Source: a virus. From it: a stretch of DNA of 64,000 nt. Position numbers and translations under genes: made by a program. Where the stretch lies: the IMG/VR virus record IMGVR_UViG_3300042691_038490, positions 30,860 through 94,859 of that record; one strand, given 5' to 3'. The notes below the pieces were generated by a model, which worked only from the letters and a program-made list of their open reading frames with translations, was not told the origin of the DNA and made no database searches. Within the stretch, counting starts at the first letter, position 1, and the number at the start of each line of letters is the position of its first letter. This document shows positions 14,614 to 63,986 of this stretch, in pieces.

Positions 14614-14614
14614 A

Positions 14615-15401: not shown

Positions 15402-15407
15402 AGTCGT

Positions 15408-15575: not shown

Positions 15576-15576
15576 T

Positions 15577-15846: not shown

Positions 15847-15848
15847 TT

Positions 15849-16033: not shown

Positions 16034-16037
16034 AAGC

Positions 16038-16187
16038 TTACATACTAGCTCGCCAACCTTCAAAATCTTCTTCCATCTCTCTTTGCCATTGAACAAAATT
16101 TTTGTTTGCATCTAGTGGAGGATTTTCAGTATCAGTCCACGGATAAAAAGTTTCTAAGTTTTCGTCTAGTAGTTTTTCAATGTTCAT
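16038..16187 (-). CDS. Small acidic protein (49 aa)
   Basis: Start ATG overlaps the TGA of the tiny membrane peptide upstream (ATGA at 16184-16187). Contains ENLETFYPW, NFVQWQREMEEDFEGW. No family recognised. Confidence 0.5.
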   Translation of the reverse strand: MNIEKLLDENLETFYPWTDTENPPLDANKNFVQWQREMEEDFEGWRASM

Positions 16188-16240
16188 AAAAATAAAATTC
16201 CTAAAATAATTCCAAGTAAAATTAAGATAATTGTTTCCAT
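16184..16240 (-). CDS. Possible 18-residue membrane peptide
   Basis: METIILILLGIILGILFL: a single hydrophobic helix with ATGA coupling to 16038-16187. No strong ribosome site, hence low confidence, but similar coupled micro-peptides occur throughout the window. Confidence 0.3.
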   Translation of the reverse strand: METIILILLGIILGILFL

Positions 16241-16249
16241 TGGGACATC

Positions 16250-16885
16250 TTAATGCTTTTTGTAGTTAATTGCAAACTGATTTTTGTCCCAGCACGCACG
16301 ACAATCAGCACACTTGTTGCCTTGTTTAGAGCTAGGGCAATTAAAGTTTCCAACCTTGCTTGCACCGCTAACGCACAAACCAAGGCGTTGAGCGATACCA
16401 ACAGGAGCAGGGCCATCCATCATAAGAGCAGAGAGACGAATAGTTAAATTGGAAGGCACTTCTCCGCCTTTCTCAATATACTCTGAAACGAAAGCATACT
16501 CCCGAGTTGGCAACCAAAAGGAAATATGCGGAAGGTTTTTAGCAACCTGCACAATCTTTTGAAGATGCCATACGCCTTGGATGTCTCCCGAATCATGCCA
16601 TCTGAAATGGGGGTTTTTAACTTTGCCGATCAAATAGGACATAGCCTCAACCCAAAGATCATTGGTAAGAGAAGCAAAACGCTTTTCCATCGCCTCTTGA
16701 ACATTCTTAAAAACATAACGCCCTTTGAGAGCATAGCAGAACGCACAAATACTTCCTGCAACCTTACGCATTTTTTGCCCGATAAGACAACGCTTTGCTG
16801 GCGTTGAGTAGGCATAACCTGGCATCTTCGAAGGTTTAGATAGTGTGCCGACAATAGCTTCGGCTTGCTTTTTGTTTTTGAACAT
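16250..16885 (-). CDS. GP88-family protein (211 aa)
   Basis: Pattern MPGYAYSTPAKRCLIGQKM, CAFCYALKGRYVF, FRWHDSGDIQG, FWLPTREYAF and a C-terminal cysteine cluster (NCPSSKQGNKCADCRACW) correspond to the phage/plasmid gene product 88 family. The C-x2-C-Y-A motif and distal cysteines suggest a metal or Fe-S centre, like radical-SAM relatives. Function unknown; frequent on mobile elements. Own promoter just upstream. Confidence 0.8.
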   Translation of the reverse strand: MFKNKKQAEAIVGTLSKPSKMPGYAYSTPAKRCLIGQKMRKVAGSICAFCYALKGRYVFKNVQEAMEKRFASLTNDLWVEAMSYLIGKVKNPHFRWHDSGDIQGVWHLQKIVQVAKNLPHISFWLPTREYAFVSEYIEKGGEVPSNLTIRLSALMMDGPAPVGIAQRLGLCVSGASKVGNFNCPSSKQGNKCADCRACWDKNQFAINYKKH

Positions 16886-16891
16886 AAAATA

Positions 16892-16919
16892 AATCTAACA
16901 TAATTTTTTCTTGTGACAA
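16892..16919 (-). promoter_or_regulatory. Sigma70-type promoter of the GP88-family gene
   Basis: -35 TTGTCA, 16-nt spacer ending ATGT, -10 TAGATT. Confidence 0.6.
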
Positions 16920-16937
16920 GTTTTTTTTACAGTTAAA

Positions 16938-17000
16938 TCTCGTTGAATATCAATGACTTACAACCGCAGGGAGGTCGCCTCTGTAAGTCGTTAATGCTTA
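16938..17000 (+). repeat. Island repeat R5
   Basis: Perfect 8-bp closing stem GACTTACA / TGTAAGTC around the core CCGCAGGGAGGTCGCC, preceded by TCTCGTTGAATATCAAT. Right arm is shortened at the end of the ArdC-like gene. Confidence 0.8.
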
Positions 17001-17834
17001 AGCAGTTGCAGTTTCTGCTTCTGGAATCTCTTCGCTTTCTTTTTTACCAATGAAAGCGTCAAATCTTTTTTGAGCTTTACTAGAAGCTGAAATAATAAAA
17101 TTCATATCCTTTTTTAATACTTGGAGCCAACTAGAAAGATAACTCGCAGAATTGTTAAAACATTTTTCAGAATCAATTCCGCAGAAGTTAAGACAGAGAC
17201 TAGCAAAAATCTCTGCGGTCAATTCTTCTTTGCTATAATTCTGTGAACCAAATCCGTTCTTCACTTCATCATTAGTCGCCTTGTGCATAGCGTGACCAAT
17301 CTCGTGAAACGCAGTGGAGTAATACTCCTCAACGCTGTTGAAGTTTTCTTTTGGAGGAAGGTCGATCTTATGTTCCTGCGGATAATAACAGGCACGACTT
17401 CCGCCGTGCTTAATCTTAATAATGCACTTGTTAATCAACTTCTCTGCTTCTTCTACTGGAGAAAAATCGAGTTTCTTAACTTCGGGTTGTTTCCACTTGA
17501 TGTTCTCGACATCACTTAACCCAAAAACTTTGTAATATCTCATCATAGGAAACCCAGTGCTTTCGTCATCTTTGTTTTTTAGGAGCTTGTAATAAACTAC
17601 CAGATGAGCTTTGGCACCTTTCTTGATGTTTCCGCCAAGTTCTTTGATCTGGTTAAAGGTAAAGAAAAAGTCATCAGAGGAAACCATACGAAGCAAAAAT
17701 TGGTTTATGCCCCTATAATTCTTTTTTGAAATGCCGTTGCAAAGATCAAAAACTTTCCAAGGCTTCTGCCAAGGGCAAGTTCCATTGTTGAGGGCTTCGA
17801 TGAATTTTTCAGTGATAATTTCGTTTACTTTCAT
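16998..17834 (-). CDS. ardC: ArdC-like antirestriction protein (278 aa)
   Basis: Two-domain ArdC layout. Residues 1-115 form the ssDNA-binding N-domain (GTCPWQKPW, KNYRGINQFLL, GGNIKKGAKA, YYKVFGLSDVE). The C-domain is an M78-like zinc metallopeptidase with FHEIGHAM (HExxH at 177-181) and the downstream Glu in ELTAEIFASL. ArdC proteins protect incoming DNA from restriction. Acts in the host cytoplasm early; own sigma70-type promoter upstream. Confidence 0.9.
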   Translation of the reverse strand: MKVNEIITEKFIEALNNGTCPWQKPWKVFDLCNGISKKNYRGINQFLLRMVSSDDFFFTFNQIKELGGNIKKGAKAHLVVYYKLLKNKDDESTGFPMMRYYKVFGLSDVENIKWKQPEVKKLDFSPVEEAEKLINKCIIKIKHGGSRACYYPQEHKIDLPPKENFNSVEEYYSTAFHEIGHAMHKATNDEVKNGFGSQNYSKEELTAEIFASLCLNFCGIDSEKCFNNSASYLSSWLQVLKKDMNFIISASSKAQKRFDAFIGKKESEEIPEAETATA

Positions 17835-17840
17835 AGCTTA

Positions 17841-17868
17841 AATATATCACTTTTTTTCTTTTTGTCTA
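17841..17868 (-). promoter_or_regulatory. Sigma70-type promoter of the ardC-like gene
   Basis: -35 TAGACA, 16-nt spacer ending GTGA, -10 TATATT; 6 bases before the ATG. Confidence 0.6.
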
Positions 17869-17877
17869 CAAATAAAT

Positions 17878-17941
17878 CTCATTCACCATCAACAACTTAC
17901 AACTGCAGGGAGGTTGCCTTTGTAACTCTCTAATAATCAAT
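17878..17941 (+). repeat. Island repeat R6
   Basis: TCTCATTCACCATCAACAAC, core CTGCAGGGAGGTTGCC, then TGTAACTCTCTAATAATCAA. Core shared with R2, R5 and R7. Confidence 0.75.
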
Positions 17942-17953
17942 AGAATAAAAATG

Positions 17954-17981
17954 TTGACATAAAACAAAAATATGATAATCT
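17954..17981 (+). promoter_or_regulatory. Sigma70-type promoter
   Basis: -35 TTGACA, 16-nt spacer ending ATGA, -10 TAATCT. Confidence 0.7.
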
Positions 17982-18004
17982 ATAAAAAGAAAAGAGGTAA
18001 TAAA

Positions 18005-18145
18005 ATGATGCACGATATATTTGATGACGAAATAACCTTGAAAATCTGGGCTAAAAAAATGCTCGATGATCAAGCTATGGAAAGAGCATTAGAGACTCAA
18101 GCAGAACTCGATGCTGACCATATGCGTGATATGGGCGAGAGTTAA
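18005..18145 (+). CDS. Small acidic helical protein (46 aa)
   Basis: Start at ATG 18005 behind an AGAGGT ribosome site. Acidic helix (IFDDEITLKIW, MERALETQAELDADH). Single-gene cassette between repeats R6 and R7 and thus the clearest example of the island's cassette layout. Function unknown. Confidence 0.55.
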   Translation: MMHDIFDDEITLKIWAKKMLDDQAMERALETQAELDADHMRDMGES

Positions 18146-18217
18146 TAACTCGCTCATTATCAATAACTTATAACCGCAGGGAGGTCGCTTGCGTAAACCT
18201 TTGATAATCAAGTGCTT
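18142..18217 (+). repeat. Island repeat R7
   Basis: Half-units TAATAACTCGCTCATTATCA and TTGATAATCAAGTGCTTA flank the core CCGCAGGGAGGTCGC. It begins in the stop codon of 18005 and ends at the 3' end of tRNA-Glu. Confidence 0.75.
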
Positions 18218-18288
18218 AGGGCTAAACGGATTCGAACCGATACACCCTCATTGAAAGCGAGGAGTCCTAACCATTAGACGATAGCCCC
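18217..18288 (-). tRNA. tRNA-Glu (anticodon TTC)
   Basis: Full cloverleaf on the minus strand: acceptor GGGGCTA with TAGCCCT (first pair G-U), anticodon arm CCTCG-CTTTCAA-TGAGG, T-loop TTCGAAT. CCA is not encoded. One mismatch in the T-stem. Confidence 0.9.
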
Positions 18289-18349
18289 AAAATATAGTAT
18301 TTAACTTATTATATTAGGTATTTTTGTATTTATCAATTAGTATTTGCTA

Positions 18350-18360
18350 TTTAGTGTAAT
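18350..18360 (+). promoter_or_regulatory. Candidate late-promoter motif TTTAGTGTAAT
   Basis: Twenty bases before the ATG at 18381; the only AGTGTAAT copy inside the cassette island. Confidence 0.4.
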
Positions 18361-18380
18361 CTCTTTTAGAATTGTATTAG

Positions 18381-18584
18381 ATGAAAAGCAAAACTGAGAT
18401 GGATCAAGTATTCAAAAACTCAAAGTTATATCAAGAATTCCTCAAAGAGCGTGAGGAAATATTAAAACACAAATGGCTTGAAAGCGAGAAAGCTGGTAAG
18501 GATGTAGGATTCGAATGGGCACTTCTTGATTGGAACTTTCATCACCGCACAGGTTGGAAAAGCGAACACAGTAATTTCTTCTAA
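18381..18584 (+). CDS. Small conserved-type protein (67 aa)
   Basis: Contains KHKWLESEKAGKDVGFEWAL and DWNFHHRTGW, a short motif that I have seen in small bacterial and phage proteins (HKWxxSEKAGxDxGFExAxxDW) without an assigned function. Followed by the opposite-strand small RNA candidate. Confidence 0.6.
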   Translation: MKSKTEMDQVFKNSKLYQEFLKEREEILKHKWLESEKAGKDVGFEWALLDWNFHHRTGWKSEHSNFF

Positions 18585-18585
18585 A

Positions 18586-18722
18586 AAATTTTAGCTCTTC
18601 CGCTCTCTCTATTCTAGAACTAGAGAAAATATAATACCCACCTTTACCTGCCTCAGACTCTGGGCATTGGGGCTTCAAGGGCTCTTAATGGGAGAGTCAC
18701 TCCACACCTTGCGGAAAGAACT
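18586..18722 (-). ncRNA. Candidate small RNA, about 137 nt
   Basis: GC-rich block (18597-18720) in AT-rich surroundings with no good reading frame. Minus-strand promoter TTGCAC-N16-TAAGAT directly upstream, and a strong terminator of the previous gene separates it. The ends pair: TTCCGC near the 5' end with GCGGAA near the 3' end, followed by a T6 run. Inner helices include CTCT/AGAG and CTCTA/TAGAG. No match to 6S, SRP or known riboswitch motifs seen. Confidence 0.45.
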
Positions 18723-18728
18723 ATAGTT

Positions 18729-18756
18729 ATCTTACCATACTTTTGTTTTAGTGCAA
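18729..18756 (-). promoter_or_regulatory. Sigma70-type promoter of the candidate small RNA
   Basis: -35 TTGCAC, 16-nt spacer ending ATGG, -10 TAAGAT. Directly follows the terminator at 18757-18786. Confidence 0.55.
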
Positions 18757-18786
18757 TAAAAAAGGCGAGATTTTTTAGGTCTCGCC
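18757..18786 (-). terminator. Rho-independent terminator after 18812-19072
   Basis: Minus strand GGCGAGA / TCTCGCC stem with a 9-nt loop, followed by TTTTTTATT. Confidence 0.85.
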
Positions 18787-18811
18787 CTTTCTATAAATAA
18801 TCTCTCTGTTT

Positions 18812-19072
18812 TTAGACTGGCGAGAGACCTCCAGCAATCCGATCATAACGGAACTGACGATGTCCGAATCCGTCACGACCAGAGAAGCACCAAGAGATGA
18901 AAAGCTTTTTTCCAGCCTTGGAAATATAATGAGTGGTAGGAACGCCAACGATGTAAGTATAAGTCTCGGTTCCATTGTAAGGCTTATAGTTGATGATATA
19001 CCGCTGTCCTAGCACGAACCAGAACAGACCCTTAATCATCTCCCACAGGGTGATGTTGTTTTGTTTCTTCAT
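18812..19072 (-). CDS. Unknown small protein (86 aa)
   Basis: Hydrophobic N-terminal half (MIKGLFWFVLG) and a beta-rich rest (TYTYIVGVPTTHY). No family recognised. Monocistronic: own promoter (19079-19106) and own terminator (18757-18786). Confidence 0.6.
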   Translation of the reverse strand: MKKQNNITLWEMIKGLFWFVLGQRYIINYKPYNGTETYTYIVGVPTTHYISKAGKKLFISWCFSGRDGFGHRQFRYDRIAGGLSPV

Positions 19073-19078
19073 TTAATA

Positions 19079-19106
19079 ATCATACCATAACTTCATTTTT
19101 CTGCAA
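19079..19106 (-). promoter_or_regulatory. Sigma70-type promoter
   Basis: -35 TTGCAG, 16-nt spacer ending ATGG, -10 TATGAT. Confidence 0.6.
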
Positions 19107-19114
19107 GAAAAGAA

Positions 19115-19188
19115 TCTCGTTGATAGTCAATGACTTACGCGGCGAAAGTCCCCGCCGCTGTAACTACTTAATACTCAACAACTTATAA
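19115..19188 (+). repeat. Island repeat R8
   Basis: CTCGTTGATAGTCAATGACT and CTTAATACTCAACAACTTAT flank a core with stem GCGGCG / CGCCGC. Confidence 0.75.
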
Positions 19189-19196
19189 AAATTAAA

Positions 19197-19358
19197 TTAT
19201 TCTTCTGATTCTTTCCAATTAGGATGCGCTTTAGCCCATTTAACAAAAACAACTTCGAGCTCTGCTAAGTACTTATCTATTTGAGATATGAGTTTAGGAT
19301 CTTCATCCTTGAGGATTCTTTTTTCTAGTATTTTACTGATCCTATTTTCACTTTTCAT
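19197..19358 (-). CDS. Small charged helical protein (53 aa)
   Basis: Start placed at ATG 19358 (MKSENRIS); a longer frame to 19394 has no ribosome site. Alternating Lys/Glu, probably one or two helices, ending WAKAHPNWKESEE. Unknown. Confidence 0.45.
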   Translation of the reverse strand: MKSENRISKILEKRILKDEDPKLISQIDKYLAELEVVFVKWAKAHPNWKESEE

Positions 19359-19429
19359 ATATAGTATTTTACAGTGCAGTGAGAAATAATTCAATTATTA
19401 TTTTTGGGATAAGTGATTTTAGGAAAAAA

Positions 19430-19543
19430 TTATTTTAAATGTGTAATTATAATTTTCGCTAACTCGATTATTGCTCCCCACGAAATACTTCCCACCATCA
19501 TTAAAATAAAAATCCAAATAAAATTCTTTTCGTACCATCTCAC
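19430..19543 (-). CDS. Possible small membrane protein (37 aa, GTG start)
   Basis: GTG at 19543; one hydrophobic helix (about residues 8-24, FIWIFILMMVGSISW). No clear ribosome site. Confidence 0.3.
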   Translation of the reverse strand: MRWYEKNFIWIFILMMVGSISWGAIIELAKIIITHLK

Positions 19544-19584
19544 ATAAAATGTTTACATAAGAAAAAATCTTTTGGGAAAAATTC

Positions 19585-19660
19585 TCGCTTTCAGCAGGGA
19601 TCGAACCTGCAACCTACGGATTAGAAATCCGTTGCTCTATCCAATTGAGCTATGAAAGCG
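19585..19660 (-). tRNA. tRNA-Arg (anticodon TCT)
   Basis: Acceptor CGCTTTC/GAAAGCG, anticodon arm ACGGA-TTTCTAA-TCCGT, T-arm GCAGG-TTCGATC-CCTGC. Reads AGA, a codon favoured in AT-rich phage genes. Confidence 0.93.
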
Positions 19661-19665
19661 ATATG

Positions 19666-19738
19666 TCGCCTAGGTCGGACTCGAACCGACACTCGAACGA
19701 TTTTAAGTCGTTTGTCTCTGCCATTGGACTACTAGGCG
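19666..19738 (-). tRNA. tRNA with Leu anticodon TAA but short variable loop
   Basis: Acceptor CGCCTAG/CTAGGCG, anticodon arm AACGA-CTTAAAA-TCGTT, T-arm GTCGG-TTCGAGT-CCGAC, discriminator A. Variable loop is only 5 nt (CGAGT), whereas bacterial tRNA-Leu is class II with a long arm. Reads UUA if charged with Leu. Only three good D-stem pairs. Confidence 0.8.
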
Positions 19739-19744
19739 GATCTT

Positions 19745-20140
19745 TTAGCTGTCAGTATCTAACTTTTCAGCCGAAACTTGTCCGAGAGAATAAGTAGGCT
19801 CAATCTGTGCTGTGCGAACAAAATTCTCAACAGGAATCTTGCTGATAGTATTCTTAACTCGATTCATAACAACCTGCTTCATTCCACCTTTTAGTCCAGT
19901 AAACTTTTTACCAAACTTATCTGTCATACCATTCATAACATACTTAAACATCACACGCTCTAACTTCTCAAGGGTAATCCAGAAATAAGCAAAGTCATCT
20001 GCCATCCATTGAAGTTCACCATTAGTGCCGCCCCAATTATAGACGCGATTATGAAATTGCTCGATGCGGTCTTTAGAACCTTTAATTCCAATAACCCAAT
20101 TTGCTCCGAGGTTTTGTTTGAATAATTTGATTTGTCTCAT
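19745..20140 (-). CDS. Cassette family protein 3 (131 aa)
   Basis: Third member of the 12407/15023 family, here on the minus strand. Shared blocks: LGANWVIGIKGS, EQFHNRVYNWGGTNGELQW, FAYFWITLEK, FTGLKGGMKQ, then VENFVRTAQIEPTYS and VSAEKLD. The GKAFYFYA block is degraded to DDFAYFWIT. Preceded by a TTGACA-type promoter and located inside the tRNA cluster. Confidence 0.7.
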   Translation of the reverse strand: MRQIKLFKQNLGANWVIGIKGSKDRIEQFHNRVYNWGGTNGELQWMADDFAYFWITLEKLERVMFKYVMNGMTDKFGKKFTGLKGGMKQVVMNRVKNTISKIPVENFVRTAQIEPTYSLGQVSAEKLDTDS

Positions 20141-20149
20141 AGTTTTTTT

Positions 20150-20177
20150 AGTTTAACAGGGTTTGATTTTTTGTCAA
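20150..20177 (-). promoter_or_regulatory. Sigma70-type promoter
   Basis: -35 TTGACA, 16-nt spacer, -10 TAAACT, upstream of cassette family protein 3. Confidence 0.65.
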
Positions 20178-20196
20178 GGGTTTTGTTGAAATTTTT

Positions 20197-20268
20197 TGGA
20201 CCGCGTAGGACTCGAACCTACAACCAATTGGTTAAAAGCCAACTGCTCTACCATTGAGCTAGCAGTCC
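20197..20268 (-). tRNA. tRNA-Lys (anticodon TTT)
   Basis: Acceptor GGACTGC/GCGGTCC, anticodon arm GTTGG-CTTTTAA-CCAAT, T-arm GTAGG-TTCGAGT-CCTAC. Confidence 0.93.
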
Positions 20269-20276
20269 GAAAATCT

Positions 20277-20349
20277 TGGGCATACTAGGATTCGAACCTA
20301 GGACCAAGGCATTATGAGTGCCCTGCTCTAACCGCTGAGCTATACGCCC
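20277..20349 (-). tRNA. tRNA with CAT anticodon, probably Ile2
   Basis: Acceptor GGGCGTA/TATGCCC, anticodon arm GGGCA-CTCATAA-TGCCT, T-arm CTAGG-TTCGAAT-CCTAG. Overall it resembles the lysidine-modified tRNA-Ile2 of bacteria (GGGC start, GGTTAGAGCA D-arm) more than elongator Met. Confidence 0.85.
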
Positions 20350-20355
20350 AATACT

Positions 20356-20568
20356 TTAACCAGAGCAAATCTCCGTAGGAAATTCGCTAGGTTCGGGAAC
20401 TAGCTTAAAGGCAACATTAAAAGCCTTGCTGATCCTATAAAGATCCTGCAAGGAATAAGTGTTCTGCCTTGCTGCTTCTCTGATTCTGCTGTCCATAATA
20501 TAAGCCCTACGCTCACCAAAGATAACTCTGGTGTAGTAAGGTGTCCATTGAGGTGTTTTGTTTGTCAT
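20356..20568 (-). CDS. Unknown small basic protein (70 aa)
   Basis: Start at ATG 20568 (MTNKTPQW). Segment RVIFGERRAYIMDSRIREAA followed by a helix (LQDLYRISKAFNVAFKLV) that looks like part of a helix-turn-helix. Short distance to a TTGACT-N16-TATATT promoter. No confident family. Confidence 0.55.
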   Translation of the reverse strand: MTNKTPQWTPYYTRVIFGERRAYIMDSRIREAARQNTYSLQDLYRISKAFNVAFKLVPEPSEFPTEICSG

Positions 20569-20574
20569 AGGTTT

Positions 20575-20602
20575 AATATACAATAGTTTGATAAATAGTC
20601 AA
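20575..20602 (-). promoter_or_regulatory. Sigma70-type promoter
   Basis: -35 TTGACT, 16-nt spacer ending TTG, -10 TATATT. Confidence 0.65.
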
Positions 20603-20646
20603 TAAAAATAATTGGTTAAACATCAAGAGTTTACATATAATAAGAT

Positions 20647-20740
20647 TGGTACGAGGGGCAGGATTCGAACCTGCATTTTGCCCAAATCTAGAGCGACCAC
20701 ATTATAAGTGTGGGGTCTTAACCAGTTAGACGACCCTCGC
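20647..20740 (-). tRNA. tRNA with Ile anticodon TAT and long variable arm, CCA encoded
   Basis: Acceptor GCGAGGG/CCCTCGT (first pair G-U), anticodon arm CCACA-CTTATAA-TGTGG, T-arm GCAGG-TTCGAAT-CCTGC, then ACCA. Variable region of 22 nt with stem GCTC/GGGC, as in Leu/Ser/Tyr tRNAs; an Ile anticodon on a class II body is atypical. Confidence 0.8.
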
Positions 20741-20772
20741 ATCAGCTCCGTAGCTAGTATCGGCCTCCGCTT

Positions 20773-20943
20773 TTAGGCTTTTCTATCCGAGCCAATCTTT
20801 TTAATCACGACCTTCGTGCCGTCTGGCCATGCACGGATAACCTTTTTCCAAAAGTCAGCCTCTGCTTCAGCTTCTTTTAGATCGGTGTGCATATCCTCGC
20901 TAACACGAATCCCATCACGCAAAACGATATATCTTACATTCAT
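20773..20943 (-). CDS. Unknown small protein (56 aa)
   Basis: Start overlaps the stop of 20940-21170 (ATGA). Short alpha/beta protein (RYIVLRDGIRVSEDM, KEAEAEADFWKKVI, GTKVVIKKI), similar in look to small phage proteins that decorate early regions. No family recognised. Confidence 0.55.
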   Translation of the reverse strand: MNVRYIVLRDGIRVSEDMHTDLKEAEAEADFWKKVIRAWPDGTKVVIKKIGSDRKA

Positions 20944-21170
20944 TCTTCTACCTCCGCAACGATTTCGTTGTCAAATAATGAGCCACCATCAACCTTGTCG
21001 CAAATAACGATGTCATTACTGCCATCATCACCAGCATACACGGCACGAAGTTTCCTTACTTGACTATATTCTTTTTTAGTCCATTGACTCTCTGGAACGC
21101 CAAGGACTTGCAGAGCCTCGACTCTCTCTGGAGGGATCGCCTCACCACTTACTGCACAATGATAGGTCAT
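20940..21170 (-). CDS. DksA/TraR-like small protein lacking zinc cysteines (76 aa)
   Basis: Opens HCAVSGEAIPPERVEALQVL, which resembles the C4 zinc region of DksA/TraR-type proteins (C-x2-C-G-x2-I-x3-R), but only one Cys is present, so the zinc site is lost or the likeness is superficial. Promoter 21178-21205 upstream; coupled to 20773 by ATGA. Confidence 0.45.
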   Translation of the reverse strand: MTYHCAVSGEAIPPERVEALQVLGVPESQWTKKEYSQVRKLRAVYAGDDGSNDIVICDKVDGGSLFDNEIVAEVEE

Positions 21171-21177
21171 AGTTGTG

Positions 21178-21205
21178 ATTGTAATATGTTTTTATATTCT
21201 GTCAA
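21178..21205 (-). promoter_or_regulatory. Sigma70-type promoter
   Basis: -35 TTGACA, 16-nt spacer, -10 TACAAT; 7 bases before the ATG at 21170. Confidence 0.7.
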
Positions 21206-21561
21206 GCAATTTTGCGGGGACGGCCTCGACCACGCTTTTCACCACTAGGCAGAATAGATGTTGCATTGTAGTTTGTTAGTTTCTCCTGCAAATAATCAAA
21301 ACGCTTGTTAGCATCCTCGATTGAATTGCAAGTGAAAGCCCAATCACCCCATTGACTATCGCTAGGATACATTTCTGCTGGGGGCATCTTTACCCCTGCG
21401 ATCTCATATCCATTGTGCTTTTTGATAGCAATAACTTCATAATGATAGTTTTCACTTTCGGGGTCATCTAATTGCTTTTTGTAAATAGCGATGTCACCAT
21501 CACGCTTTACCTGCTGAAGTTTGAATCCCTTGCTAGTAAAAGATTCTTCAAGAATTTTCAA
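21202..21561 (-). CDS. Conserved phage/plasmid-type protein with AT-hook tail (119 aa)
   Basis: Body contains YHYEVIAIKKHNGYEI and the motif MYPSDSQWGDWAFT, common in small phage proteins (PSxxxWGxxxWT). The C-terminus GEKRGRGRPRKIA is an AT-hook (RGRP), indicating possible minor-groove DNA binding. Overlaps the end of 21548-21703. Confidence 0.6.
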   Translation of the reverse strand: MKILEESFTSKGFKLQQVKRDGDIAIYKKQLDDPESENYHYEVIAIKKHNGYEIAGVKMPPAEMYPSDSQWGDWAFTCNSIEDANKRFDYLQEKLTNYNATSILPSGEKRGRGRPRKIA

Positions 21562-21703
21562 TCTTCACTCCTTCTGGAAGCCAGCCTTTAGGGTCAAGGT
21601 TTTCACCCATATAGCCGACTTGAGTTTCTTGTTTAGTTTTAGGGTCAATAGAAAAGAGAGCATAGCCACCTTCAGCCAGCTTCTTTACTTTAGTGATGTT
21701 CAT
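21548..21703 (-). CDS. Unknown small protein (51 aa)
   Basis: First gene of the unit with 21202: ATG at 21703, 7 bases after a TATAAT box. Sequence ends GWLPEGVKIENS. Unknown function. Confidence 0.55.
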   Translation of the reverse strand: MNITKVKKLAEGGYALFSIDPKTKQETQVGYMGENLDPKGWLPEGVKIENS

Positions 21704-21709
21704 ATGATA

Positions 21710-21737
21710 ATTATAGTATGCTTTTAGATTAATTCAA
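21710..21737 (-). promoter_or_regulatory. Sigma70-type promoter
   Basis: -35 TTGAAT, 16-nt spacer ending ATAC, -10 TATAAT. Confidence 0.65.
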
Positions 21738-22070
21738 GACAAAAATATCACGACCAATAACACCTGCCCACTTTGCTTTATATACAGGCTTTTTAGTATC
21801 AGAATAAACAAAGCTCTTATACTTATAAGGATTGTAAGTCACCTTGCGTTCTAGTTGATCAATAGGCCATCCTTCATCCCTATGCCCACAAACAAATGCG
21901 TGAACATTCTTACGCTTCTCTCTAAGAACCCTGGAGCGACCTGCTTGACTCACTCGAAATTCTACATCTTTCAAAAAGAACTCTGAACTATGCTCTAATA
22001 CTTTTCCTTTGAGCATAATGCTTAAACAATGTTTATGTAAATTGTAATAGACTTTGTGTTTTGCTTTCAC
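21729..22070 (-). CDS. Conserved mobile-element protein (113 aa)
   Basis: Pattern VYYNLHKHCLSI, then FRVSQAGRSRVLREKRKNVH and AFVCGHR is widespread in phages and plasmids of aquatic bacteria, without an assigned function. The Arg-rich helix and GRSRVLREKRKNVHAFV block suggest nucleic-acid binding. Own promoter at 22078. Confidence 0.65.
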   Translation of the reverse strand: MKAKHKVYYNLHKHCLSIMLKGKVLEHSSEFFLKDVEFRVSQAGRSRVLREKRKNVHAFVCGHRDEGWPIDQLERKVTYNPYKYKSFVYSDTKKPVYKAKWAGVIGRDIFVLN

Positions 22071-22077
22071 TCCCTTA

Positions 22078-22105
22078 ACTATAAGATAAATTCTAAAAAT
22101 GTCAA
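22078..22105 (-). promoter_or_regulatory. Sigma70-type promoter
   Basis: -35 TTGACA, 16-nt spacer ending ATCT, -10 TATAGT. Confidence 0.7.
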
Positions 22106-22110
22106 GAGAT

Positions 22111-22188
22111 ATAAGTGCTTGATAATCAAAGAGTTACGCAAGCCGAGCCCCCGCATGCGTAAATCCTTGGTAGTCAATGACTTATAAT
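22111..22188 (+). repeat. Island repeat R9
   Basis: GCTTGATAATCAAAGAGTTA and CCTTGGTAGTCAATGACTTA flank the core GCCGAGCCCCCGCATGC. Confidence 0.75.
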
Positions 22189-22202
22189 CCATCAAATCTA
22201 AG

Positions 22203-22233
22203 CAAAAAAATGCGAGGGGGTTTGCCCCTCGCA
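22203..22233 (-). terminator. Rho-independent terminator of the DUF932 gene
   Basis: Minus strand GCGAGGGG / CCCCCTCGC with CAAA loop followed by a T7 run. Confidence 0.9.
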
Positions 22234-22255
22234 CTTGTTAAGGTTTCGTTTTAGT

Positions 22256-23113
22256 TTAGGCGACCAGTTTCAAGAGGTCTTCGTCACGAGTTTTGCCCGA
22301 GAAGACTTTGAGTAGGTCACGGTTGACTCGCTCGCTGTACTCGTAGCGCTCTTGCGAGACATTGCGAGTAAGGAATTGCGTTGCCGCATTGTAGAGGTTG
22401 TACAGATTGCGATCCGTATCCTCCTCGTACTGCGGATTGCGCCAAACAGCCTCGATCCCTTCGCGCACCTTGCCAGAGATAACGTCTTTCTCTTCCAGCT
22501 TGGTGAGCAGGTTCAAGCCCTGTTCGTCAGTGAGCGCCCGTTGCGCCAGTTTGTTGAAAACTTGCGCTTGAGACTCAACGCTATCACACGCACGAGCCAA
22601 CGCATCACCAACAAAGTCCAGATTGACCGCAAGCGTGTGGCGCTTAGTCATGCTGAACTCCTTGGAGAGCGAGGTCATGCCGTTGGTGCAAACGAGACGC
22701 AGGAAGCCTAGGGACAACGAAACACGGCAGGAGCGGTCATAACTATTGTTAACGACCAGTCGCAAGCCGAGAATGTCACCCTTGGCGCGCTTGCCCATGG
22801 GCTTCAACTCCGTTTTGAAATCGGGGAAGTCATAGGAAGCGTAGAAGCGAGAACCGTCACGCACAACAAACTTCTTCGAATTGTAATTCGAGAGCTTGCC
22901 ATGAGTGGCGAGGTTGCTTTCCACCATCTCGATGAGGTCTGCATTCTTCACCACACCATACTGCTCGGTGCAAACTCCGAGCGTAATGGGTTCGGCGGTG
23001 TCACGGCGCACCATGCCGAAGTATCCTGTCCTCTTGCCGTCAGTTGTGAGGAGTGGCTCTTGATGTACATCAAAATCGTATACATCTTGAGCGGGTTTGG
23101 TTGTTCTAGCCAT
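22256..23113 (-). CDS. DUF932 (phage/plasmid-like) protein (285 aa)
   Basis: Residues 1-130 show the DUF932/TIGR03299 pattern (TEQYGVVKNADLIEMVESNL, GSRFYASYDFPDF, VVNNSYDRSCRVSLSLGFLR, then LVCTNGMT). Family is common on plasmids and phages, function unknown, sometimes expressed very highly. GC content is well above the window average, so it is a recent arrival. Own promoter and own strong terminator make it an independent cassette. Confidence 0.85.
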   Translation of the reverse strand: MARTTKPAQDVYDFDVHQEPLLTTDGKRTGYFGMVRRDTAEPITLGVCTEQYGVVKNADLIEMVESNLATHGKLSNYNSKKFVVRDGSRFYASYDFPDFKTELKPMGKRAKGDILGLRLVVNNSYDRSCRVSLSLGFLRLVCTNGMTSLSKEFSMTKRHTLAVNLDFVGDALARACDSVESQAQVFNKLAQRALTDEQGLNLLTKLEEKDVISGKVREGIEAVWRNPQYEEDTDRNLYNLYNAATQFLTRNVSQERYEYSERVNRDLLKVFSGKTRDEDLLKLVA

Positions 23114-23119
23114 AGATTA

Positions 23120-23147
23120 ATAGTACCACACTTTTATAATCTGACAA
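23120..23147 (-). promoter_or_regulatory. Sigma70-type promoter of the DUF932 gene
   Basis: -35 TTGTCA, 16-nt spacer ending GTGG, -10 TACTAT; 6 bases before ATG. Confidence 0.65.
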
Positions 23148-23215
23148 GATTTTTTTTCATGTCAGAAGATAATGGCCTTAAAGGTTTTACGTAATGTGAA
23201 TAACTTTTTTTAAAA

Positions 23216-23286
23216 GGTGTTGAATATCAACGACTTACGCGCGCGGGGGGCGCGCCCCTATAACTCCTTAATAATAAGCAACTTAC
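23216..23286 (+). repeat. Island repeat R10
   Basis: GGTGTTGAATATCAACGACT and CTTAATAATAAGCAACTTAC flank the GC core CGCGCGGGGGGCGCGCCCC. Last copy in the window; no copies seen to the right. Confidence 0.75.
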
Positions 23287-23742
23287 TTAAACCACACTAA
23301 ATTTAATATTATTCTTTCTGTACTCTCTTACTTTCCTCATAGCATATAAAGAGGCATCTACTTCACTTAATTTAGCTCTAGTTCCCATGTTATATTTTCT
23401 TATTTTCTTAACTCCATGATAAAATTTCCTTTTCTTGTATTGCCAAATATGTCTTACTTCATGGGCAATTAATTCAATTAATGATTCTTCCCAGCTATAA
23501 GTTTTAACAGGTAAATATCCCCTCATACCACCGCTAATATATGGCTTAATATACTTTGAATAAGCTGGAACAGCAATATGCGCCCTCATGCTTCCACTCC
23601 AAGCCCTACCATGCCAACCTAATTTAGTATTACCAAAATCTATTTTTCGGATATCTTTAAGGTGCAACCCTTGGGGCAAGCACCATTTAACCATCTCTTT
23701 TAATTTATCTGAACATAATTTAGTAGTGTTGATGAGCTTCAT
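23287..23742 (-). CDS. SprT/zincin-like metalloprotein (151 aa)
   Basis: Contains the zinc motif IELIAHEVRHIWQY (HExxH) and a downstream SEVDASLYAMRKVREY that supplies the third ligand (Glu/Asp), the layout of short zincin metallopeptidases. Basic and Tyr-rich. Own promoter at 23750. Substrate unknown; a DNA-protein crosslink or peptidase role would be guesswork. Confidence 0.65.
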   Translation of the reverse strand: MKLINTTKLCSDKLKEMVKWCLPQGLHLKDIRKIDFGNTKLGWHGRAWSGSMRAHIAVPAYSKYIKPYISGGMRGYLPVKTYSWEESLIELIAHEVRHIWQYKKRKFYHGVKKIRKYNMGTRAKLSEVDASLYAMRKVREYRKNNIKFSVV

Positions 23743-23749
23743 ACTCTCA

Positions 23750-23777
23750 ACTATAATCTAAATTAATCTAAAGTCAA
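23750..23777 (-). promoter_or_regulatory. Sigma70-type promoter
   Basis: -35 TTGACT, 16-nt spacer ending AGAT, -10 TATAGT. Confidence 0.65.
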
Positions 23778-23957
23778 TTAATATCTGGCGGTAATTACAG
23801 GATGTCCTTCGTCTAAAACATCACAGGATTCATCAGTAAATAATAAAGTGGCTCTACGATATTCGTTATCAGTATCTATAATAGTAATATCACTATTTAA
23901 TTGGCTCTCATTCATATTCTTAAGTTTATTTAAGAGGTCTCTATAAGTATTTGTCAT
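23778..23957 (-). CDS. Unknown small protein (59 aa)
   Basis: ATG at 23957 immediately after the stop of 23958-24203. Acidic alpha/beta sequence (TYRDLLNKLKNM, SDITIIDTD, ATLLFTDES, HPVITARY), a pattern seen in small phage early proteins. No function assigned. Confidence 0.6.
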   Translation of the reverse strand: MTNTYRDLLNKLKNMNESQLNSDITIIDTDNEYRRATLLFTDESCDVLDEGHPVITARY

Positions 23958-24203
23958 TTAATTAAATATCCTATATTGTTTAGCGGCCTTAATTAATTTT
24001 TTTCTAATACTCTCATTATTAACATTAACTGTTCCGCCCCATTCTATTTTCTTTATTTCTCTGCCACATATTTCATTATTTCCATCAAAGGATTCAACAA
24101 CATAGTATTTATTATCACCTATTTGGAAATCATAGGATATTTTAACATTTCTAGATATTAAATTAACATCAGCTTTAGAAGATGCGGGATGTGTTAGGCT
24201 CAT
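23958..24203 (-). CDS. Unknown small protein (81 aa)
   Basis: Beta-rich N-half (VKISYDFQIGDNKYYVVESF) and a basic C-terminal helix (IRKKLIKAAKQYRIF). Preceded by a TTGACT-N16-TATAGT promoter and in one unit with 23778. Confidence 0.6.
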   Translation of the reverse strand: MSLTHPASSKADVNLISRNVKISYDFQIGDNKYYVVESFDGNNEICGREIKKIEWGGTVNVNNESIRKKLIKAAKQYRIFN

Positions 24204-59943: not shown

Positions 59944-60936
59944 TTATATATTTTCTTTATTTCCAGAAAAAGTTATTTCTAATGCTTCGGATAATATATG
60001 ATTTAATTGACTCCTTATAAAGGACTCCATGCTTTGTAGAGTATTAAATTTATAAAGATTGTTATTTTGAAATAGTTTATAGATATGTAGCTTCTCTAGG
60101 ATATCGCATTTATTAATAATTAACCTATTAGTTCCAGAAATCTTTATTGCATCTATGAGTTTATTTAAATTTAACCAATTGACGATTCTGCGTCTACCAG
60201 TAGTTGACCCAAATTCTTGCCCTAATTCTATAAGCATATTTAGTTCTGGATCTTGCCAAAGTGACTCTGGAAAAAGAGGATCAACACCACTCTTTGTATC
60301 ATAAATTTTTGCCACGCCAATGATATCTTTTATCTTTTTGGGCGAAAATCCTAGTGAGCAAGCTGAATATGGTAGAGTTTCGCTACTCGTAACATAAGGA
60401 TAATCACCATAATTAATATCTAACCAAAAACTTTGCGCTCCTTCACAAAGAATATTTCCATAAAGTTCACCATCCCAAAGATATTGTTTATCAATATAAT
60501 CTCTAGCAAGTTTACCAATCCTTAACATTTTATCTCCATAAGCAGGAGCAATACCTTGTCCAGTTGTACCTAGTTTCTTTTTTAGAACTTCAAGATCATA
60601 CTGAATATGCTTCTCAGTAATAATATGAGTTTTTGGACTAACCTTAATTAAAGAAGTATCAAAACCTTCTTTTTTAAGATAGTCTATTTCATCAAAAAAT
60701 TTGTCAACATTAATTACGCAATTAGGACCAATAATACTAAGTTTATTTTGAAAGACTCCACATGGAATTATATGTGTTTTATATTTTTTATCTCCTAGAT
60801 AAACTGTATGACCAGCATTTGGACCACCATTCCAGCGACAAACTATATCATAATTCTTAGATATAGCATTACTTATCTTTCCTTTACCTTCATCTCCCCA
60901 TGCTAGTCCAAATATAATATCAACATAGTTTATCAT
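59944..60936 (-). CDS. purA: Adenylosuccinate synthetase (PurA-type, 330 aa)
   Basis: GTP-dependent ligase that joins IMP and Asp. Motifs: IFGLAWGDEGKGKI (catalytic Asp15), NGGPNAGHT (His43), GTTGQGIAPAYGDKMLRIG, CEGAQSFWLDINYGDYPYV then TSSE, GSTTGRRRIVNW, NKCDIL. At 330 residues it is about 100 shorter than bacterial PurA and near the length of phage PurZ, but it retains the catalytic Asp that PurZ replaces with Ser. Acts with the GMP reductase-like enzyme at 62390. Confidence 0.9.
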   Translation of the reverse strand: MINYVDIIFGLAWGDEGKGKISNAISKNYDIVCRWNGGPNAGHTVYLGDKKYKTHIIPCGVFQNKLSIIGPNCVINVDKFFDEIDYLKKEGFDTSLIKVSPKTHIITEKHIQYDLEVLKKKLGTTGQGIAPAYGDKMLRIGKLARDYIDKQYLWDGELYGNILCEGAQSFWLDINYGDYPYVTSSETLPYSACSLGFSPKKIKDIIGVAKIYDTKSGVDPLFPESLWQDPELNMLIELGQEFGSTTGRRRIVNWLNLNKLIDAIKISGTNRLIINKCDILEKLHIYKLFQNNNLYKFNTLQSMESFIRSQLNHILSEALEITFSGNKENI

Positions 60937-60973
60937 TAGCTAAAAGATTATAGTCAAAATATAAAGGAAATAC

Positions 60974-60983
60974 AAGTGTAAAT
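60974..60983 (+). promoter_or_regulatory. Candidate late-promoter motif AAGTGTAAAT
   Basis: Seven bases before ATG 60991. One of several plus-strand copies. Confidence 0.4.
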
Positions 60984-60990
60984 TATTTGT

Positions 60991-61968
60991 ATGTTTAAAT
61001 ATATTTTAGGCTTTTCTGCTTTTATATTAGCTTCTTGTGCAGCTTTCTTTTCTGTAAAAGGAATAGCGCTTCTTTTTGCTGCAAGTTTCTGGAGTGTTGC
61101 TATTATGGCTGGAAGTCTTGAGTTAGCTAAATTAATATCTGCAAGTTATCTTTATCGTTATTGGAAAGAAACAAACAAGATTCTTAAAAACTATATGTTG
61201 GGCGCAGTTATATTATTGATGAGTATTACTAGTCTTGGTATATTTGGATTCTTATCTGACGCATTTCAACGAAATTTTTCTCAATATAGCCTTAACTTAA
61301 ATAAAATAAATAGTCTTAAAAACCAACAGATATTCATAACCTCTCAAATAGATTTTAATAAAAATAAATTAAAAGATCTTATAGAATTACAAAAGACATA
61401 TCAATTCTCTCTTGATAACGCTGTCAAACAAGATGTAACTACAACAAAAACGACTAGTGGCGGATTATTTTCCTCTGGTAAAACAGAAAAAGTTACAGAT
61501 CAAAAATTATTAGATAGTAAAAATAAAATAGTAGAAAGTTCACAACAAAATATTAATTCTTTATTCACTCAAATATCTACTGTTAGCTCAGATCTTCAAA
61601 ACCAAGAGAAACAAAATTCAGATATCTCTCAAGAGATGATTAAGCTAGAAGCTGATAATACTAAAGGAGAAATTGGAACATTTAAATTTGTAGCAGAAGC
61701 TTTTGGAATGAATATAGAGACTGCTGTTAGGATATTTATCATACTTATAGTAATTGTATTTGATCCTTTAGCTGTTTGTCTTGTTATAGCTTACAACTCA
61801 ATAACAAAAAAACAAGAAAAGGTAGAGCAAAAGCAAATAACTCAAGATCAAAAAATAGAAAAAATTATAGAGAAACCAATCGAAAAACTAAAAGTTATTT
61901 ACCGAGACTTTAAAAGAGGAACAAAAAACCAACATAATCCAGACCTCGCTGATCCTAATATTTCTTGA
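60991..61968 (+). CDS. Membrane protein with central coiled coil (325 aa)
   Basis: Four N-terminal and central hydrophobic segments (ILGFSAFILASCAAFFSVKG, FWSVAIMAGSLELAKLISAS, NYMLGAVILLMSITSLGIF), then a long Lys/Gln/Ser-rich coiled coil (residues about 105-220), a last helix (IFIILIVIVFDPLAVCLVIA) and a charged C-terminal tail. A similar membrane protein with internal coiled coil occurs in many T4-like aquatic phages. Role unknown; late-type motif suggests virion or envelope remodelling. Confidence 0.65.
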   Translation: MFKYILGFSAFILASCAAFFSVKGIALLFAASFWSVAIMAGSLELAKLISASYLYRYWKETNKILKNYMLGAVILLMSITSLGIFGFLSDAFQRNFSQYSLNLNKINSLKNQQIFITSQIDFNKNKLKDLIELQKTYQFSLDNAVKQDVTTTKTTSGGLFSSGKTEKVTDQKLLDSKNKIVESSQQNINSLFTQISTVSSDLQNQEKQNSDISQEMIKLEADNTKGEIGTFKFVAEAFGMNIETAVRIFIILIVIVFDPLAVCLVIAYNSITKKQEKVEQKQITQDQKIEKIIEKPIEKLKVIYRDFKRGTKNQHNPDLADPNIS

Positions 61969-62149
61969 TTTTATAATTTTTATTAGATGGATCTATTTTT
62001 AGAATATGAGCTTTAGCTTTAGATAAGCCATCTTTTGAAGGAGGAAAAACTCCATGAAGAAAATTATCAGTCTTACTAAAGACAGCGTAATACTTATGTT
62101 TTAGTTTCTTCTGTTTCTGTACTATTTTTTTGCTCTTCTTGTTTTTCAT
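61955..62149 (-). CDS. Small basic protein (64 aa)
   Basis: Lys-rich N-terminus, then KYYAVFSKTDNFLHGVFPPS KDGLSKA; a pattern seen in small phage proteins. Overlaps 62094-62360 by 56 bases; start uncertain. Confidence 0.5.
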   Translation of the reverse strand: MKNKKSKKIVQKQKKLKHKYYAVFSKTDNFLHGVFPPSKDGLSKAKAHILKIDPSNKNYKIKKY

Positions 62150-62360
62150 TTACTAATTTCATTAAATGCTCTTTTAGAGCATCTCTAGCTTTATCACAAA
62201 AATCTTGTCCCATTTGTCCACAGCAATTTTTAAATTTTTTACCACTATGTGGACATATAGTATTTCTAGAAATTTTTGGATATATTCTCACTATTGGACT
62301 AAACTCTGTAGCTCTAGCGTATTCTATAGCTGTTAATTTATCTACGTTTTCTTTATCCAT
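62094..62360 (-). CDS. SEC-C-type zinc motif protein (88 aa)
   Basis: TICPHSGKKFKNCCGQMG: SEC-C-like zinc ribbon (C-x-H/C...C-C) in the middle, helical flanks (DKARDALKEHLMKLVNE). SEC-C motifs bind zinc and mediate protein contacts (as in SecA). Probably an adaptor. Acidic C-terminus. Confidence 0.6.
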   Translation of the reverse strand: MDKENVDKLTAIEYARATEFSPIVRIYPKISRNTICPHSGKKFKNCCGQMGQDFCDKARDALKEHLMKLVNEKQEEQKNSTETEETKT

Positions 62361-62389
62361 AATAGATTATATGTTATTAATAATATAAA

Positions 62390-63508
62390 TCAAATCTTTC
62401 CATGAGCAAAGCCTTCATACATACTATTAGGACTATTTCTTACTGCTTGAATTTTATTAGTCCAAAGTCCACCACGCATATCTTTAAGATCTCTAAATCC
62501 TAAGTAGCTCATAGCACTTCTTAAGCCATTAGCAAAATCATAAACTACATCTTCTAGAGATTTATTTTCTATAATTGGGATTAAGGTGTTGTCTCCTTCT
62601 ACAAAAAGATTCTTTTTCGTACCATCATAGAGTTCATAATCTTCTACAACATCTCTGCTAGCCATACCTCTATATTTAGCAAATCTTTTGCCATCTTTTT
62701 CAACGATATCTTCATCATCAATAACATCATATAATCCAGCAAAAATTCGTCCACAGATAACTGCATCACAACCGCTGGCTATAGCTTTTACTAAATCTTT
62801 AGGATATCTAATTCCACCATCAGTTAAAATACTTGGTCTATTAGATGGATCTGGTTGATTTGAGTCAGAATGAAATAAGTCAACTTGAGATAGCTCCCAA
62901 TTTCTAACAGCTTTCCAAGCATAGTAATTCCCAGTTAGACTTGGACATCCTATGCCCGTTTTTACTTGAGTTAAACACATACTTCCAGGACCAATTAAAT
63001 GTCTGAATCCATCAGCTTTTAGGTTGGCTAATCTATATACGCTTTGTTTTGTTAATGTATTACCAACGATTATATCCTGCCTAAATCCAGCTGTTTTATA
63101 CCATCTAAGAAAATCTTCCACATTTTTTGCTAATCCATTTGCTGTATCAAGAAAATATATATCTGTATATGTACTAGAAGCTCTTATCCTATCGTCAGCA
63201 TCTTTAAGACCAATAGCTGTAACACAGAAATTACTTTGATCCTTAATAAATTTAGCTTTTGTAGCTTGATCTTGAACAGACATAAATCTATGTATAACTC
63301 CCGCCCCACCTAGTTTATTAATCTTAACGCAGGATTTTACAGAAGATACTGTGTCCATTGGAGACAAGATAATTGGTATATTAATCTCAAAATTCTTGGA
63401 AATTTTAGTTTTCGTACTGACTTCTTTTCTGGAGTTAATATCTGAAAAATTTGGTAAAAGTGAAATATCATCGTAACTTAGGGCTTCTTTAAATTCTTGT
63501 TTTTGCAT
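62390..63508 (-). CDS. guaC: GMP reductase-like (GuaC) / IMPDH-family enzyme (372 aa)
   Basis: TIM-barrel IMPDH/GMPR family without CBS domains. SYDDISLLPNFSDI, SPMDTVSSVK, IGPGSMCLTQVKTGIGCPSL (Cys178), LTDGGIRYPKDLVKAIASGC, ICGRIFAG, RGMASR. The loop has K-T-G-x-G-(C)-P-x-L like GMP reductase (VKTGVGYPQL) rather than A-G-x-G-V-P-Q of IMPDH. Expected reaction: GMP + NADPH to IMP + NH3. Own promoter-like TTGATT-N17-TAATAT upstream. Confidence 0.8.
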   Translation of the reverse strand: MQKQEFKEALSYDDISLLPNFSDINSRKEVSTKTKISKNFEINIPIILSPMDTVSSVKSCVKINKLGGAGVIHRFMSVQDQATKAKFIKDQSNFCVTAIGLKDADDRIRASSTYTDIYFLDTANGLAKNVEDFLRWYKTAGFRQDIIVGNTLTKQSVYRLANLKADGFRHLIGPGSMCLTQVKTGIGCPSLTGNYYAWKAVRNWELSQVDLFHSDSNQPDPSNRPSILTDGGIRYPKDLVKAIASGCDAVICGRIFAGLYDVIDDEDIVEKDGKRFAKYRGMASRDVVEDYELYDGTKKNLFVEGDNTLIPIIENKSLEDVVYDFANGLRSAMSYLGFRDLKDMRGGLWTNKIQAVRNSPNSMYEGFAHGKI

Positions 63509-63586: not shown

Positions 63587-63661
63587 ATGATTCAAACATT
63601 CATATGCGTTTTACTTGGTCTTGTGCTATTAATGTATTGGCAATATAAAGATGCAAAATAA
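63587..63661 (+). CDS. Tiny membrane peptide (24 aa)
   Basis: MIQTFICVLLGLVLLMYWQY then KDAK. Almost the same length and design as the peptide at 302-376. Overlaps the start of the deaminase gene by 11 bases. Confidence 0.45.
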   Translation: MIQTFICVLLGLVLLMYWQYKDAK

Positions 63662-63986
63662 TAGAATTTCATTTATCGAAGCTGCTATGTTAACTGCCAC
63701 TATATGGTCTCATAGATCTGAGGATTTACATAAAAAAGTTGGAGCATGTATCCTGAATGAGGAGGGCAGAGTATTGTCTGTTGGTTATAACGGTCTAACT
63801 TCAAAATTGAATAAAGATATTTCATTTTGGGAAAATAGAGATAATAGACGAGACTATGTAGTGCATGCAGAAGTTAATGCTTTAGCACTAATAAAAAAAC
63901 AAGATAATCCATACTTAATTGCTACTACTCTTTTACCATGCTCTCATTGTGCAACTAATATAGCTTGCTATAATATTAAAAAGTAG
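63651..63986 (+). pseudogene. dCMP deaminase, interrupted by a frame change at its C-terminus
   Basis: Zinc motifs VVHAEVNALAL and LLPCSHCATNI identify a dCMP deaminase (dCMP to dUMP, feeding dTMP synthesis). The frame ends at TAG after NIKK, but one base back it reads VVYTEE, the normal continuation of the family. So either an A is missing in the A5 run (63977-63981), or the phage uses -1 frameshifting there. Window ends 14 bases later. Confidence 0.75.

Follow-up and report, generated by a model that had tools for sequence, protein, structure and literature searches.

We analysed a stretch of viral DNA of 64,000 nucleotides (the window), which covers bases 30,860-94,859 of the 94,859-base IMG/VR record IMGVR_UViG_3300042691_038490, and we report here on two genes that may form a purine-converting pair. 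The record belongs to a tailed phage, since its first 31 kb hold matches to the terminase large subunit and to tail fibres. The first gene (59944..60936, minus strand) encodes a short phage version of adenylosuccinate synthetase (PurA; 330 aa; PF00709, 4e-78). The second (62390..63508, minus strand) encodes a protein of 372 aa that resembles guanosine monophosphate (GMP) reductases (GMPRs) but lies on the inosine monophosphate (IMP) dehydrogenase (IMPDH) side of this family (PF00478, which covers both; 2.3e-62). Both open reading frames (ORFs) are exactly where the initial annotation had placed them. The GC content of the window is 0.328, that of the purA gene 0.303 and that of the reductase gene 0.331. 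Scans of IMG/VR revealed relatives of PurA in 66 loci (57-92% identity) and of the GMPR-like protein in 53 (73-94%). Moreover, both genes are under purifying selection: against seven relatives, purA gave a Nei-Gojobori dN/dS of 0.052-0.120 and the reductase gene one of 0.035-0.090, although these figures are rough, as synonymous sites are close to saturation. The number of viral loci with close relatives (66 and 53, respectively), together with the low dN/dS, excludes that either reading frame arose by chance.

Our results strongly support the 330-aa protein as a genuine PurA, albeit a shortened one. As the initial annotation had pointed out, it carries the catalytic aspartate, Asp15, which corresponds to Asp13 of the E. 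coli enzyme. In the residue table, this Asp13 and the P-loop Lys16 are found in 75/75 unique members of the phage family, and so are N38, H41, T129, R143, Q224, T239, T300, T301, R303 and R305 (E. coli numbering), as well as K331 and D333, which belong to the site of the GTP base. Between them, these 14 residues presumably serve IMP and aspartate as well as the phosphate and the GTP base. AlphaFold2 modelled the protein with a predicted TM-score of 0.82, and in the Foldseek search with this model ranks 1-32 were PurA proteins, with PurZ starting at rank 33. The family measures 324-341 aa, while all 110 cellular PurA proteins collected (110/110) have at least 405 aa; note that the short archaeal form L315 was handled separately from these. 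The phage proteins lack the segments 156-199 and 359-385 of E. coli PurA, and these gaps overlap those of PurZ and of the P. horikoshii enzyme. Because a protein shortened in this way can't fill the 430 positions of the NCBIfam PurA equivalog model (257 bits against a cut-off of 402), our claim is that of a PurA-family enzyme working like PurA, not of a curated equivalog. One of the 75 unique sequences (L038:10001-10990) has an in-frame stop near the C-terminus.

For the phylogenetic tree of PurA we combined 8 of the 75 family members with 43 cellular rows, the E. coli enzyme and 9 further references; of the 11 family rows chosen, 3 are absent, as the de-duplicated set did not contain them. 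The phage family grouped with the PurA of Bacteroidota and of a huge phage (support 99/97), on a long stem (2.7), and a 100/100 branch separated it from the archaeal short forms and from PurZ and PurZ0. Given this distance, the shortening looks independent of that seen in the archaeal forms and in PurZ. The closeness to Bacteroidota partly reflects the choice of cellular references, which were the best 80 matches to the phage alignment together with 30 loci from a single archaeal phylum and were thus picked largely by their similarity to the phage proteins.

We next turn to the 372-aa protein, whose assignment as a GMP reductase by mechanism is good but inferred. It has the residues Cys178, Thr180 and Glu304, and the Pfam scan gave no match to a CBS domain. 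Both loop residues (Cys and Thr) and the Glu of the flap are kept in 67/67 family members (the reductase of locus L063, described below, was excluded from this count). In support of this assignment, the Arg-Tyr dyad is absent from the whole family (0/67) and the flap is shortened, and the excerpt of PMC2525682 describes GMPRs as having a truncated flap that lacks Arg418-Tyr419 and conserves Glu431. The dyad is present in 27/29 reference rows of IMPDH length. The two exceptions, L271 and L272, have a flap (GMAS...LF.EG) resembling that of the phage enzyme (GMAS...LFVEG) and look like GuaB1, judging from this flap and from their place in the tree. Conversely, the dyad is missing in 13/14 rows of GMPR length, and the only one that has it is most likely L267, which groups among the IMPDHs. 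The initial annotation had relied on the loop VKTGIGCPSL. The loop is indeed present, but its Lys is common to GuaC and Bacillus-type GMPRs and is substituted in other phage homologues; we dropped the loop alone as evidence, since it discriminates weakly and the flap does so better.

The origin of the enzyme is probably an IMPDH. In the tree, which included 8 of the 67 family rows, the family was placed on the IMPDH side (98/97), adjoining the group made of IMPDH plus GuaB1 (91/85). The approximately unbiased (AU) test did not reject a common clade with GuaB1 (p 0.13), although the tree itself does not recover such a clade. GMPRs of this kind have precedents. According to the excerpt of PMC4701174, the trypanosome GMPR is closer to IMPDHs and has Gly415 changed to Ala, a change shared by the phage motif RGMAS, which does not share the second one, at Tyr411. 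Likewise, mycobacterial guaB1 encodes a GMPR, going by the title of a 2022 paper by Knejzlik et al. that PMC11303537 cites.

Several results weigh against this picture of two ordinary activities. For the reductase, a common clade with the GuaC-type GMPRs was rejected (AU test, p 2e-51), and the protein scored under every NCBIfam cut-off for GMPR and IMPDH equivalogs, its top score being that for the IMP dehydrogenase TIGR01302 (170.6 bits, cut-off 481.5) and those for the GMPR equivalogs being 132.5 (344), 114.5 (397) and 117.9 (675). Its AlphaFold2 model, made from a 15-row alignment, had a mean predicted local distance difference test score (pLDDT) of 44.8. For PurA, the position of E. coli Val273 is a Ser in 75/75 family members, compared with a Val in 44/44 cellular PurA, 4/4 PurZ/PurZ0 and 2/2 archaeal short forms. 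Moreover, Ser414 is changed to Phe in 74/75 members and Pro417 mostly to Asn or Asp, in what we take to be the C-terminal loop near the GTP base. With these changes at 273, 414 and 417, the preference for substrate or cofactor may differ from that of the cellular enzyme. Finally, two PurA loci (L066 and L067) have no GMPR on their contigs of 13.5 and 8.3 kb, the lyase PurB, which would complete a path to adenine nucleotides, was found in 0/15 related contigs, and, as explained below, the association of the two genes is partly one of descent.

The two genes travel together. A GMPR-like gene was present in the fetched stretch of 57/66 PurA loci, and the pair was found on 59/66 contigs overall, because in L008 and L056 the PF00478 match lies in a 371-aa frame elsewhere on the contig. 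The 6/66 PurA loci without any reductase are all on contigs of 4.5-13.5 kb. L066 and L067 (L066:7753-8778, L067:822-1847; 57% identity) represent a third phage context of the short PurA, with, by eye, a deaminase-like ORF upstream and a downstream ORF that resembles another ribonucleotide reductase (RNR). Seen from the other gene, PurA was in the stretch of 49/53 GMPR-like loci and, in L118, outside it but on the same contig, and three loci (L076, L081 and L115) had the GMPR-like gene without PurA. Where a PF00478-type gene was nearby (58 loci, including L063), it was on the same strand as purA in 47/58, with a median gap of 1,505 bases, and on the opposite strand in 11/58, about 7.8 kb apart. 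purA itself was on the GMPR side in 46/66 loci and just behind the gene of the small RNR subunit, NrdB, in 12/66, with 8 unclassified. L105 has two copies (455-1447 and 11703-12695; 77.6% and 74.9% identical to the PurA of the window), one behind the RNR and the other behind the GMPR-like gene, and is possibly intermediate between the two gene orders. Since the linkage is kept with both positions of purA, this gene has changed its place without losing its partner.

Note that these phages are kin and that the linkage is mostly found in one lineage, so co-occurrence partly reflects shared descent and is weak on its own. The change of position and the locus L063 are stronger evidence. L063 encodes a PurA of the same family (63% identity). 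The same strand holds, 1.8 kb upstream, the gene of a reductase of 353 aa that shares 59.9% identity with GuaC of E. coli and falls inside the GuaC clade; the remaining genes of L063 all lie outside the clusters that the main lineage has in common. That a single PurA family occurs beside two types of reductase is our strongest reason for thinking that the partner acts as a GMP reductase.

Could the 372-aa protein instead be an IMP dehydrogenase, which would convert IMP to xanthosine monophosphate, so that both enzymes would compete for IMP and there would be no route at all? Its tree position, on the side of the IMPDHs, and its top NCBIfam score, both given above, fit this idea. However, the family lacks the Arg-Tyr dyad and a CBS domain match and has the shortened flap, GMPRs of IMPDH ancestry exist (the trypanosome and GuaB1 cases cited above), and the same PurA family is paired with a canonical GuaC in L063. 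We consider an IMPDH unlikely. Far less probable is a second alternative, raised in the initial annotation, in which PurA would be a relative of PurZ or PurZ0 that makes 2-aminoadenine nucleotides for DNA containing this base (Z-DNA). The size of the protein is near that of PurZ, and in PHROG it matches a single family, phrog_1211, which bears the label '2-aminooxy adenylosuccinate synthetase'. Against this, the amino_Aden_PurZ model of NCBIfam gave 95.7 bits (cut-off 300), and the 4/4 PurZ/PurZ0 proteins compared have a Ser where the 75 phage family members have Asp13, which leaves the 2-aminoadenine idea unsupported. The initial annotation had stated that the aspartate argues against the classic PurZ, which hints that PurZ0 stays open. 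This was mistaken according to the excerpt of PMC12884076, where the 147 phage sequences of PurZ and PurZ0 carry Ser for Asp without exception (100%), with Asp13 in 99% of the PurA group. The phylogeny proposed as a check also placed the family beside Bacteroidota PurA and apart from PurZ and PurZ0, although the AU test only just rejected a clade of the family with PurZ (p 0.048). The companion genes point the same way: DatZ (PF12917), for which the initial annotation had suggested a search, and family-A polymerases (PolA/DpoZ) were found in 0/16 related contigs with working controls, though these contigs may be incomplete; tblastn with DatZ and DpoZ matched only the controls; and the polymerase of the relatives is of the Pol III alpha type (14/16 contigs), with PolB in 0/16. 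MazZ/DUF550 also gave 0/16, but here the control likewise matched nowhere. We thus rejected identity with PurZ or PurZ0 on the basis of the Asp in place of Ser, the place in the tree and the companions DatZ and PolA, which were not found in these 16 contigs. As a separate observation, the PermaG DutZ query matched dUTPase-like stretches in two loci, L044:6864-7196 (E 6e-6) and L065:6240-6491 (E 0.001). Note that the PHROG label, attached here to an Asp-bearing PurA, can overcall Z-genomes and may inflate counts of Z-DNA phages.

Two further alternatives accept both reactions but change the substrate. The pair could act on deoxynucleotides, taking deoxy-GMP (dGMP) from degraded host DNA through dIMP and succino-dAMP to dAMP and bypassing RNR. 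Recycling of host DNA is common among phages, and the unique Ser at position 273, on the ribose side, speaks for this option; if true, the phage would rewrite host G into phage A without ribonucleotide reductase. However, these phages encode their own RNR. Moreover, Arg303, which balances the O2' of IMP (PMC8342488, excerpt), is kept in all 75 members, and a smaller polar residue such as Ser would rather tolerate or bind the 2'-OH. With Arg303 kept and Val273 replaced in this way, a ribonucleotide is the better guess for the substrate of the phage PurA, and we regard action on deoxynucleotides as quite unlikely. Alternatively, a modified adenine, for example 7-deazaadenine, could be made from a modified guanine nucleotide. 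This has a precedent in tubercidin biosynthesis, where, according to the excerpt of PMC6112128, a 7-deazaguanine nucleotide is turned into a 7-deazaadenine nucleotide by the GMP-reductase homologue TubD together with, in the authors' proposal, borrowed PurA and PurB. However, tblastn with E. coli QueC, QueD, QueE and FolE against 159 phage loci, run with no positive control, gave one weak match, and such a role seems highly improbable. Near the pair in L021 (L021:14561-15541) there is a radical SAM protein, to which the weak QueE match belongs (E 0.003).

Taken together, we propose that the phage encodes a route from GMP through IMP to adenylosuccinate, which host PurB would finish and which would feed the supply of dATP; we put the probability of this reading at about 0.68. 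The GMP to IMP to adenylosuccinate conversion suggested in the initial annotation is supported, at the level of sequence, by the complete set of PurA residues, the GMPR-type active site, the linkage and the pairing in L063. In the proposed route, the 372-aa enzyme would reduce GMP to IMP and set ammonia free, with NADPH as the expected cofactor by analogy, and PurA would join IMP and aspartate at the expense of GTP to give adenylosuccinate. Host PurB would then produce AMP, and the phage RNR and a deoxynucleoside monophosphate (dNMP) kinase, both seen in relatives, would carry it towards dATP. A parallel comes from the infection of S. aureus by phage K, for which the excerpt of PMC9241854 lists host guaC (2.42, 2.18, 4.19 and 3.69) and purA (2.00, 1.85, 1.75 with P = 0.1, and 2.21) as induced. 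In that system the host provides both steps, which here would be encoded by the phage.

The surroundings of the pair fit such a supply. In the relatives, the gene clusters near the pair include the large and small subunits of RNR, a dNMP kinase-like protein and a deoxycytidine monophosphate (dCMP) deaminase. The large RNR subunit was found in 15/16 contigs, the exception being the contig of the window itself, which ends beside the pair. A relative of 171.9 kb (G002), in which the scan covered 64/117 ORFs of at least 140 aa, encodes ThyX, a Pol III alpha-type polymerase, DnaB, RecA, NrdB and a dNMP kinase. In the window, the dCMP deaminase gene (63651..63986, plus strand; 111 aa; PF00383, 6.4e-14; phrog_174) is divergent from the reductase gene; its frame is disrupted at the last bases of the contig, continues in the relative L070 and measures about 137 aa in relatives. 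A dCMP deaminase together with a thymidylate synthase is a known phage route from C to T precursors. Together with the proposed purine route, the deaminase and ThyX, by turning C into T precursors, would let the phage move both the purine and the pyrimidine pool away from G/C and towards A/T, in keeping with a genome GC content of about 30%.

Two more genes lie between the members of the pair. A small cysteine-rich protein (62094..62360, minus strand; cluster C8, 95/118 loci) also separates purA from the GMPR-like gene in most relatives; it had no match in the Pfam scan, and we take it to carry a SEC-C-like motif. The other (60991..61968, plus strand; cluster C18, 39/118 loci), which interrupts the pair in some relatives too, encodes a protein without an assigned role, with no match in Pfam or PHROG. 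On the other side of purA there is an FMN-reductase-like flavoprotein (PF03358; 58688-59302; cluster C31, 22/118 loci). Elsewhere, the window encodes an 8-oxoguanine DNA glycosylase-like protein (PF22175; 38883-39557) and the UV endonuclease UvdE (PF03851; 53126-54025). The region 12001-24000 reaches a GC content of 0.37-0.43, compared with about 0.3 elsewhere, and holds an ArdC-like/zincin protein and 6 of the 9 tRNA genes. Shine-Dalgarno sequences precede 25/100 genes, with 10.4 expected, which is a weak hint on the host.

The two reactions proposed for the phage pair are those of cellular GuaC and PurA (with PurB) in E. coli, and the catalytic and IMP-contacting residues of PurA that we compared and the Cys, Thr and Glu of GMPR are kept. 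The phage system differs in being carried by a phage, in its shortened PurA, in its reductase from the IMPDH side and in the lack of PurB among the 15 contigs. Like the phage enzyme, the GuaB1 of actinobacteria and the trypanosome GMPR are IMPDH-related reductases, but these carry CBS domains, according to the excerpts cited above, while the phage protein has about 370 aa and no CBS match. PurZ (phiVC8, S-2L) and PurZ0 (Gordonia and Microbacterium phages) share the short PurA fold and the reliance on host PurB; they differ in their Ser for Asp, in using dGMP, in having their own companion genes and DpoZ and in forming a separate clade. Among the phage records listed, the highest identity to the PurA of the window (38.8%) was that of LR756501, a 735-kb uncultured huge phage, whose PurA belongs to the same wider clade and, with 399 aa, is less shortened. 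The GMP reductases of Bacillus phage G, Caulobacter phage Cr30, Xanthomonas phage XacN1 and Thermus phages likewise have the IMPDH/GMPR fold and belong to large phages, but are about 25-29% identical to the window enzyme and do not join its family in the tree. No record was common to the 56 GMPR/IMPDH phage records and the 60 of 196 PurA records listed, and we found no paper describing a phage GMPR and PurA pair in a literature search conducted mostly without subscription papers.

The chemistry proposed here is ordinary purine interconversion; what is unusual is the phage setting, the pair and the versions of both enzymes. The pair would provide a purine counterpart to the route from C to T, with which one virus could push both base pairs towards A/T, and it would show that phages can control the composition of nucleotide pools and not their size alone. 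It also adds a probable IMPDH-derived GMP reductase and a PurA that appears to have been shortened independently, neither of which should be annotated as a Z-DNA gene.

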